The position numbers and the translations under genes are program-made. 64,000 bases of DNA, taken from Oceaniglobus trochenteri (lineage in GTDB: Bacteria; Pseudomonadota; Alphaproteobacteria; Rhodobacterales; Rhodobacteraceae). The stretch covers positions 124,001 through 188,000 of the forward strand of contig NZ_JACNMM010000009.1 in NCBI RefSeq assembly GCF_020529025.1, written 5' to 3'. The notes beneath the pieces were generated by a model. The model made no database searches. It saw only the letters and a list, made by a program, of their open reading frames with translations, and was not told the DNA's origin. Positions 37,300 through 39,867 of this stretch are shown here, one piece after another; within the stretch, counting starts at the first letter, position 1, and the number at the start of each line of letters is the position of its first letter.

Positions 37300-37349
37300 G
37301 CCGACGCCCGGGTCCGGGCCTTCCCATTTGCCGACGCCCGGGTCCGGGC
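37300..37349 (+). repeat. Two tandem 20-base direct repeats, each a small hairpin, upstream of def
   Basis: The 20 bases at 37300-37319 recur exactly at 37330-37349 (period 30). Each copy contains GCCCGGGTCCGGGC, able to fold as a short GC stem. They lie 40-90 bases before the first deformylase start, where a promoter or leader is expected. Confidence 0.8.
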
Positions 37350-37388: not shown

Positions 37389-37910
37389 ATGGCATTGCTT
37401 GATATCCTCATCCATCCCGACCCGCGCCTGAAAAAGGCCGCCACCCCGGTTGCCGAGGTGACGCCCGCGTTGCGCACCCTGGCGGCGGACATGCTGGAAA
37501 CCATGTACGACGCGCCGGGCATCGGGCTGGCCGCGCCGCAGGTTGGCGTATTGCAGCGGCTGATCGTGCTCGACTGCGTCAAGGAGGAGGGTGCCGCGCC
37601 GCGCCCCATCGTCATGGTGAACCCCGAGGTGACCTGGGCGAGCGACGAACTCTCGGTCTATGACGAGGGCTGCCTGTCGATCCCCGAGCAATACGGCGAG
37701 GTCGAGCGGCCGGCCGAGGTTGACGTGCGCTGGCATGATCTGGACATGGCCGAGCATTCGGAGCGCTTCAGCGGGTTGTGGGCGACCTGCGTGCAGCACG
37801 AGATCGACCATATCGACGGCAAGCTGTTCATCGATTATCTCAAGCCCCTGCGCCGGCAGATGATCACCCGCAAGATGGTGAAGCTGAAGCGCGAGCGGAT
37901 GCGGGCCTGA
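37389..37910 (+). CDS. def: Peptide deformylase (canonical copy)
   Basis: Def removes the N-formyl group from nascent proteins. The 173-residue product has all three motifs intact: [10 protein letters not shown] (45-53), EGCLSIP with the metal-ligand Cys95, and QHEIDH with ligands His137 and His141 and catalytic Glu138. I start at ATG 37389, the only ATG at the conserved N-terminus. It is the first of three def-like genes in a row, 3 bases before the next, leading into fmt. Confidence 0.97.
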   Translation: MALLDILIHPDPRLKKAATPVAEVTPALRTLAADMLETMYDAPGIGLAAPQVGVLQRLIVLDCVKEEGAAPRPIVMVNPEVTWASDELSVYDEGCLSIPEQYGEVERPAEVDVRWHDLDMAEHSERFSGLWATCVQHEIDHIDGKLFIDYLKPLRRQMITRKMVKLKRERMRA

Positions 37911-37913
37911 GCG

Positions 37914-38405
37914 GTGCCGCTCGACATCCTGAAATGGCCCGACCCGGTGCTGTCGCAGGTCTGTGCGCCGGTTGCGCTTTTCGACGCGGGGCTTAAGGCC
38001 CTGATCGACGATATGTTCGCCACGATGTATGCCGCGCCGGGGCGGGGCCTTGCCGCACCGCAGGTCGGGCGCGCCCTGCGCCTTTTCGTCATGGATGTGA
38101 CCTGGAAGGAGGGCACCCCTTCGCCCTTCGCCTTCGTCAATCCGCAGATCCTCTGGGCGTCGGATGATCTTGGCACGGCCGATGAGCAATGCCTTTCGAT
38201 CCCCGACGTGCCGATGCCCGTCGAACGGCCGCAAACGGTGCGGATGCGCTGGCAGGGGCATGACGGCGCCTGGCAGGAACAGGAGCTTTCGGGCATGGCC
38301 GCCCGCTGTGCCCAGCACGAGCTGGACCATCTGGACGGGATCGTGATCTTCGATCGTGTCGCGCCCGACCTGCGCGCCGGGCTTGAGGCGGGGTATCTGG
38401 CATGA
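37914..38405 (+). CDS. Second peptide deformylase paralogue
   Basis: The 163-residue product starts with GTG and keeps [10 protein letters not shown], the ligand Cys93 and QHELDH (His135, Glu136, His139). The second motif reads EQCLSIP instead of EGCLSIP. All metal ligands and the catalytic glutamate are present, so it could be active, perhaps with altered substrate preference. It has a shorter C-terminus than the first copy, without its basic helix. It overlaps the third copy by 4 bases. Confidence 0.9.
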
Positions 38406-38896
38406 CGCCGCGCCCCTATGTCATGTGGCCCGACCGCCGGTTGCGCACGGCAGCCGAACCCGTCGAGCAGATCACCGACGATATCCGCGCCCTGTGGGAC
38501 GAGATGATTGCGGCGATGGATGCCATGCCCGGTGTCGGGCTGGCCGCGCCGCAGCTTGGGGTGATGCTGCGCCTTGCGGTGGTGGATGCCTCGGACAAGC
38601 GCGGGCAGGCCGTGCGCATGGCCAACCCCGAGGTTCTGCACGCCAGTGTCGAGCCGCGCTGGCACGAGGAGGCCTCGCCCAACCTGCCGGGGCTTTCGGC
38701 GCCGGTGGAGCGGCCCCGGGCCGTGACTGTGCGCTTTATGAACGAACGCGGCGAAAGCGAAGACCGCGATTTCGTCGGGCTTTGGGCCACGAGCGTGCAG
38801 CATCAGATCGATCACCTGAACGGGCGGATGTACTTCGACCGGCTGAGCCGGGTAAAGCGGGCCATGCTGCTGAAGAAGGCGGCAAAACTGCGCTGA
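38402..38896 (+). CDS. Third deformylase paralogue, active-site residues lost (probable pseudoenzyme)
   Basis: The 164-residue product aligns with its two upstream paralogues over the full length and keeps the first motif ([10 protein letters not shown]). Where they have EGCLSIP or EQCLSIP it has EASPNLP, so the metal-ligand cysteine is Ser92. Where they have HEIDH or HELDH it has HQIDH, so the catalytic glutamate is Gln135; both histidines (134, 138) remain. Such a protein should not deformylate peptides by the known mechanism. The frame is intact, start-stop overlap with its neighbour is kept, and codon use matches the region, so it looks maintained rather than decaying. Confidence 0.9.
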
Positions 38897-38967: not shown

Positions 38968-39867
38968 ATGCGGATCGTGTTCATGGGAACGCCGGATTTT
39001 TCGGTTCCGGTGCTGGAGGCATTGGTCGGGGCGGGGCACGAGATTGCCTGTGTCTATTGCCAGCCGCCACGCCCGGCGGGGCGGGGCAAGAAGGATCGTC
39101 CGACGCCGGTTCATGCCCGTGCGCAGGCACTGGGGCTGCGGGTGCGCCATCCGGTTTCTCTGAAAGGGGCCGAGGCGCAGGCCGAATTCGCCGCGCTGGG
39201 GGCGGATGTGGCCGTTGTCGTGGCCTATGGGTTGATCCTGCCGCAGGCGGTTCTGGATGCGCCGATGCTGGGCTGTCTGAACATCCACGCCTCGCTGCTG
39301 CCACGCTGGCGCGGGGCGGCGCCTATTCACCGGGCCGTGATGGCGGGGGACGGGGAGACCGGCGTCTGCATCATGCGGATGGAGGCGGGGCTGGACACCG
39401 GGCCGGTGCTGTTGCGCGCTGCCACGCCGATTGGCGCGGCCGAGACGACCGGCGATCTGCACGACCGGCTTTCGTCCACGGGGGCCGACCTGATCCTGCG
39501 GGCGCTGGAGGATCTGCCGAGGCTGGAGGCCGTGGCCCAGCCCGAAGAGGGCGTGACCTATGCCGCCAAGATCGACAAGGCCGAAGCGCGGATCGACTGG
39601 ACCCGCCCGGCGTCCGAGGTGGCACGGCATATCAACGGCCTTTCGCCCTTTCCGGGCGCCTGGTGCGAGGTGGCGGGCGAGCGGGTGAAGCTGCTGCGTG
39701 CCCTTGCCGTCGCGGGCGAGGGCGCGCCGGGGCAGGTGACGGAGGGCTTTACCGTGGCCTGCGGCACCGGCGCGGTGCGCATCGAACGGGCGCAGCGGGC
39801 CGGCAAGGGTGCCATGGCGGCAGAGGATGTGCTGCGCGGGCTTGCCCTGCCGCCGGTTCTGACCTGA
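38968..39867 (+). CDS. fmt: Methionyl-tRNA formyltransferase
   Basis: Fmt formylates initiator Met-tRNA with 10-formyl-tetrahydrofolate, the reaction that the deformylases undo. The 299-residue product has [19 protein letters not shown], the catalytic-region sequence [16 protein letters not shown], and the C-terminal tRNA-binding domain ([14 protein letters not shown]). ATG 38968 fits the family start exactly. It lies 71 bases downstream of the third def-like gene. Confidence 0.97.

Follow-up and report, generated by a model that had tools for sequence, protein, structure and literature searches.

The deformylase gene row of Oceaniglobus trochenteri includes a third copy, here called def3, whose product is very probably a pseudo-deformylase lacking deformylase chemistry, since three catalytic elements, namely the Cys90 metal ligand, the Glu133 general base, and the backbone NH of Leu91, have disappeared together (sites in E. 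coli numbering, with Met as 0). Judging from its substitution pattern across the Rhodobacteraceae, def3 is held under strong purifying selection, and it has probably been preserved to bind rather than to cut.

The window analysed here, a stretch of 64,000 nucleotides, carries three deformylase genes in tandem followed by fmt, all on the forward strand, in line with the original prediction of a tandem. The row opens with def1 (37389..37910, + strand), an ATG-initiated gene for a canonical peptide deformylase of 173 aa with the motifs GIGLAAPQ, EGCLS, and QHEIDH and a long basic C-terminal tail. It continues with def2 (37914..38405, +), which starts with GTG and encodes an accessory deformylase of 163 aa that retains the catalytic residues (GRGLAAPQ, EQCLS, QHELDH) and has lost the basic C-terminal tail, and with def3 (38402..38896, +), whose candidate pseudo-deformylase of 164 aa starts with ATG and reads GVGLAAPQ, EASPN, and QHQIDH. 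The predicted 4-base overlap of def2 and def3 is present at 38402-38405, but the interval first given for all three genes, 37914-38896, holds def2 and def3 alone, def1 sitting at 37389-37910. Directly downstream of def3, fmt (38968..39867, +) encodes a methionyl-tRNA formyltransferase of 299 aa (270.7 bits against TIGR00460, cutoff 201.5). The products of def1, def2, and def3 each score above the PF01327 cutoff (132.2 bits for def3, cutoff 22.8) and are the only PF01327 matches in the 4.59-Mb genome; def3 passes the TIGR00079 and NF001159 cutoffs as well. Upstream of the row, positions 37300-37349, which lie 40 to 89 bases ahead of def1, contain two copies of the 20-base GCCGACGCCCGGGTCCGGGC, with starts 30 bases apart, each including an inverted repeat (GCCCGG..CCGGGC) recognized by eye. 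These are its sole matches in the genome at up to two mismatches, and the pair is possibly a regulatory or hairpin element. As a separate observation, a search of the same genome for a GNVR-domain protein returned one match.

Homologs were collected from the family by several routes. A protein search gave a match in 117 of 120 family genomes, and a def3-like match, at an E value of 2.6e-50 or better and at least 52% identity, was present in 97 of the 120 sampled Rhodobacteraceae genomes (counted by hand from the match table) and absent from 23, six of which are less than 90% complete; the def3 sequence itself was read in 49 of the 97. A contig scan yielded 575 relatives of the query, of mixed or uncertain def3 status, and the best 80 of the 575 were retained, among them members of Oceaniglobus, Marivivens, Ruegeria, Phaeobacter, Paracoccus, Thioclava, and Yoonia. 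The resulting set of loci (L004-L147), including 20 picked because they were more divergent or negative for the DNA pattern described below and 10 that have no def3, provided 134 def3, 145 def1, and 56 def2 rows, and 128, 139, and 55 were left once identical DNA had been removed. The 139 def1 rows include the second copies of L044 and L093, two loci in which the row used as def1 may be that second copy.

The distribution was also screened with a pattern for DNA encoding E(A/G)SPNLPG. The pattern was found in 244 of 292 genomes of an own-family sample, in 4 of 385 genomes of a second sample (4/5 own-family, 0/380 others), and in 24 of 398 genomes of a third (22/27 own-family, 2/371 others); the family counts are lower bounds because the pattern overlooks variants such as EASPCL. 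Neither of the two matches outside the family had a deformylase around it according to phmmer, and no deformylase with the def3 signature was detected outside Rhodobacteraceae in the sampled genomes by DNA pattern and phmmer, a pattern that is blind to pseudo-deformylases having another signature. Carriage of def3 by phages was rejected, the best phage match reaching only 43% identity, as was carriage by plasmids, since the sole match above 60% in the plasmid collection was a 1.58-Mb Pseudorhodobacter replicon.

Gene order around def3 is recurrent. A Fmt-like frame was detected in 122 of 132 measured loci having def1 and def3; in 78 of these 122, its start is no more than 30 bases from def3. 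The overlap between def3 and its upstream neighbor is exactly 4 bases in 45 of the 53 loci that have def2 and in 31 of the 79 that lack it. For all these counts, starts were picked by a simple rule and near-duplicate loci were included. Since def3 overlaps the preceding gene and fmt starts close by, this arrangement supports coupled translation. Among the 10 loci from genomes without def3, fmt comes directly after def1 in seven (L138-L144), the order is def1-def2-fmt in one (L147), and the fetched stretch contains no fmt in the remaining two (L145 and L146). Given the 23 of 120 family genomes without def3 and the seven loci that run from def1 to fmt, def3 is dispensable in some lines.

The active site of def3 has been rebuilt in one uniform way. 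Alignment of the three window products bears out the substitutions noticed initially, with the metal-ligand position occupied by Cys95, Cys93, and Ser92 and the catalytic glutamate position by Glu138, Glu136, and Gln135 in def1, def2, and def3, respectively, while both histidines (His134 and His138) and motif I are intact in def3. Further changes relative to def1 are, in E. coli numbering, Gly89Ala, Leu91Pro, Ser92Asn, and Cys129Ser. Glu133 is the general base of deformylase, and the Leu91 backbone NH and Gln50 help hold the oxyanion. Conservation of the Ser and Gln changes among orthologues is complete: Ser90, Pro91, Ser129, and Gln133 were each found in 128/128 distinct def3 sequences, as were the retained Gln50, Glu88, His132, and His136, so that sites 50, 88, 90, 91, 129, 132, 133, and 136 read QESPSHQH throughout. 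The same sites read QECLxHEH in 138/139 rows assigned to def1 and 55/55 assigned to def2. At the level of individual residues, the canonical set is complete in 136 of the 139 def1 rows; two others depart from it at Cys129 only, and the last, the L093 second copy, is degenerate. Cys90, Glu133, and both histidines are present in all 55 def2 rows. In a Salmonella deformylase, Cys90 binds the metal and is required for activity, and a Cys130Ser change roughly halves activity (PMC7683392).

Two technical explanations for this signature were set aside. A first alignment, of 110 def3 rows, had one Arg90 row and one row gapped at motif III, but a later one, from which no row was excluded for shortness, placed Ser90 and Gln133 in 134/134 rows, arguing against an alignment slip; sequencing or assembly error is ruled out by recurrence in 128 distinct sequences. 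Ser90 is encoded by AGY in 83 def3 rows and by TCN in 45 (AGC in 77 rows), and Gln133 by CAG in 125. Reversion should be easy, as AGC to TGC and CAG to GAG are one change each, yet no return to Cys90 or Glu133 was seen among the 128 def3 rows. More broadly, of 157 comparable columns, 10 are near-fixed for one residue in def1 and for another in def3 (a frequency of at least 90% in both), and seven of these ten fall within 23 motif columns that we named from known motifs (hypergeometric P 5e-5); the def3-specific near-fixed residues outside the motifs are Trp32, Met42, and Leu156. Using our own list of pocket columns, mean entropy in def3 is 0.39 bits in the pocket versus 0.97 bits in the rest of the protein, the pocket value being higher than that of def1 (0.25 bits). 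Mean cysteine content is 0.74 per protein for def3 and 3.5 for def1.

Constraint on def3 matches that on the catalytic copy. Over 2019 non-independent pairs with dS between 0.1 and 1.0, the median dN/dS is 0.30 for def3, like the 0.28 of def1, and the highest value of any single def3 pair is 0.97. In the 379 pairs with def2, the medians are 0.29 for def1, 0.49 for def2, and 0.29 for def3. Protein distances agree: across 127 loci (8001 pairs) the medians are 0.293 for def3 and 0.297 for def1, and in the 53 three-gene loci they are 0.285 for def1, 0.495 for def2, and 0.290 for def3. The proposal that the third copy is maintained despite having lost deformylase chemistry thus came through both of its sequence tests, namely the Ser and Gln substitutions in 128/128 orthologues and a constraint like that of def1.

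By both measures, def2 evolves faster than def1 and def3. In all 56 def2 rows, Arg replaces the Ile44 of motif I, and the rows vary at Gly89 and are without the basic C-terminal tail; def2 may be a specialised deformylase. A separate case is the middle copy of L093 (2491-2995, Rhodobacter sp. NTK016B), which is degenerate at scattered sites (GAGSLSAPQ, EHCLS, QHGLDLL) and provides a natural contrast to the uniform def3.

The origin of def3 was addressed with quick trees of 148 to 173 columns, with SH-aLRT support only, from 35 of the 128 def3, 45 of the 139 def1, and 30 of the 55 def2 rows plus 30 outgroup rows. The 35 def3 rows formed one clade (SH-aLRT 100) nested inside a Rhodobacteraceae deformylase clade (SH-aLRT 97). 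That the motif columns drive this grouping was rejected, as def3 was still one clade after their removal. On a def1 plus fmt tree, def3 presence changes 7 times over 131 loci, with a shuffled mean of 7.8, a result given little weight because only 8 of these loci are without def3 and two long branches meet. Most likely, def3 arose a single time, by duplication of a deformylase gene within the Rhodobacteraceae lineage, and then lost its hydrolytic machinery along one definite path.

The predicted structure of def3 retains an intact fold. An AlphaFold2 model built from a 49-sequence alignment (mean pLDDT 93.9) displays the deformylase fold with a C-terminal helix at residues 150-163, and its best PDB match is 5j46 (Z 26.7, rmsd 1.6 over 164 residues), with E. 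coli deformylase 4az4 at Z 26.5. The three best PDB matches are all deformylases and superpose on the model over 161 to 164 residues with rmsd values between 1.5 and 1.6, and the 50 solved structures among the matches listed are all named deformylases. Median net charge of the C-terminal tail is +6 for def3, +8 for def1, and -1 for def2, and median tail length is 16 residues for def3 and 22 for def1. Deformylase is reported to dock on ribosomal protein L22 via its C-terminal helix, near the ribosomal tunnel exit (PMC8712518; PMC5591237). As the def3 tail is about 6 residues shorter than that of def1, docking by def3 may be weaker.

Binding would be the simplest function for a protein that preserves Gln50 and Glu88 of the groove together with both histidines and the basic helix. 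Most likely the target would be formyl-Met N-termini, the exit site, or both; otherwise it would be a partner protein. The hypothetical roles suggested at the outset, i.e., binding of the other copies, of the ribosome exit site, or of formylated peptides, fit the predicted fold and basic C-terminal helix equally. We tentatively propose, at somewhat less than even confidence, a mechanism in which def3 docks at the tunnel exit and holds formyl-Met N-termini uncut. Here, Def3 would use its peptide groove and basic C-terminal helix to settle at or close to the tunnel exit and to grip formyl-Met N-termini without cutting, and this hold would adjust the moment at which the chain passes to Def1 or to the processing factor that comes next; as an alternative output, Def3 might report a build-up of formylated peptides. 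Counting against this mechanism, loss of the Leu91 NH would weaken the holding of the formyl oxygen too; in addition, some deformylases with altered motifs are reported active, e.g., the T. brucei type 3 enzyme (PMC12690207). A more elaborate version, which we consider unlikely, would make Def3 a dedicated reader or receptor that recognizes formyl-Met at the ribosome exit, whether the chain is nascent or free, and relays the signal to Def1 or into a pathway of degradation or stress.

Nearly as likely as formyl-Met or exit-site binding, although still on the unlikely side when taken by itself, is a pseudoenzyme that works away from nascent chains, with Def3 binding and regulating Def1, Fmt, or an unrelated signalling protein. 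The frequent overlap of def3 with the preceding def gene, its position before fmt, and the near-fixed Trp32, Met42, and Leu156 outside the motifs would suit such a partner role, as would the precedent of DefA and PtkA, in which a deformylase has a non-catalytic function (PMC11194573). However, seven of the ten near-fixed differences from def1 fall in motif columns, and a pure scaffold would have no need for the invariant Gln50, Glu88, His132, and His136. That def3 is a redundant duplicate in decay, for which one could cite the 23 of 120 family genomes without def3, the step from def1 to fmt in 7 of 10 fetched def3-less loci, and the single def3 pair at dN/dS 0.97, is scarcely credible: true decay looks different, as in the L093 second copy, and this explanation was rejected on the uniform site and def1-like median constraint.

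Two further explanations would keep def3 an enzyme. The new residues Ser90, Pro91, Ser129, and Gln133 match catalytic residues in their invariance (128/128), which makes a changed chemistry conceivable, whether Ser90 with His132 and His136 formed a metal-free Ser-His pair or an altered metal site acting on another substrate; the three former metal-ligand positions should be near one another, making a Ser-His contact conceivable. We nevertheless judge this quite improbable, as Glu133Gln and Leu91Pro deprive the site of its general base and of an oxyanion donor, and the 50 listed structural matches are all named deformylases, which does not reveal function. We know of no relative with such Ser-His or altered-metal chemistry. 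Less probable again, with only a slight chance in our estimation, is a weak or conditional deformylase that would work, e.g., with another metal under oxidative stress. The loss of Cys at sites 90 and 129 and the low Cys content would be expected to confer resistance to thiol oxidation, and the authors of a survey voiced this idea for type 3 copies (PMC12690207). Set against this, Cys90 is required in Salmonella (PMC7683392), the general base is lost as well, and oxidation protection alone needs neither Leu91Pro nor Glu133Gln.

Among known systems, def3 can be compared with type 1B deformylases (E. coli Def; PF01327), with which it shares the fold, motif I, the HxxxH histidines, a C-terminal alpha helix, and an adjoining fmt, whereas motif II is EGCLS in type 1B and E(A/G)SP(N/C) in all def3 rows read, and motif III is HEXXH versus HQXXH. 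Type 3 accessory deformylases of S. aureus, S. pneumoniae, archaea, and trypanosomes resemble def3 as additional copies whose motifs are altered and whose activity is low or absent (PMC12690207, PMC5591237), with inactive copies reported for S. aureus and S. pneumoniae (PMC12690207). Apparently unlike these, def3 has one fixed signature through a family, is set in a def-fmt row, and groups inside Rhodobacteraceae deformylases in a tree without type 3 rows. In B. subtilis, an E133A variant of DefA that is enzymatically inactive continues to inhibit the kinase PtkA, and the inhibition exerted by DefA becomes stronger with formyl-Met peptides (PMC11194573). This parallels the role proposed for def3 in that a deformylase is used apart from catalysis, although DefA is still an enzyme with a highly negative C-terminal helix (PMC11194573), whereas def3 has lost catalytic residues and has a basic tail.

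Clusters of the same kind as def1-def2-def3 have been surveyed by Lamberioux et al. 2025, who reported deformylase genes clustered in 98.1% of Rhodobacterales reference species and three together in 62.5%, and called the rationale of these clusters elusive; no member is described as inactive in the relevant portions of that survey (PMC12690207). The available text of PMC3024229 contains nothing on the Rhodobacteraceae def cluster, and our literature search found no description of def3 or of a family-wide pseudo-deformylase with a fixed signature in this cluster, although absence from print is unproven. Thus, while Rhodobacterales def clusters and inactive accessory deformylases elsewhere are already published (PMC12690207), a family-wide pseudo-deformylase with a fixed replacement signature is apparently new. 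Because def3 passes the TIGR00079 and NF001159 cutoffs, we suggest that a non-enzyme present across the family is being counted as a deformylase by automatic annotation and in surveys of copy number. If def3 binds formyl-Met or the exit site, it would offer a natural tool for studying control of the first step of protein maturation, and if it is a formyl-Met reader, the def-fmt operon of one bacterial family would contain a formyl-Met checkpoint. For the Rhodobacterales, def3 provides a concrete, testable reason for their deformylase clusters.
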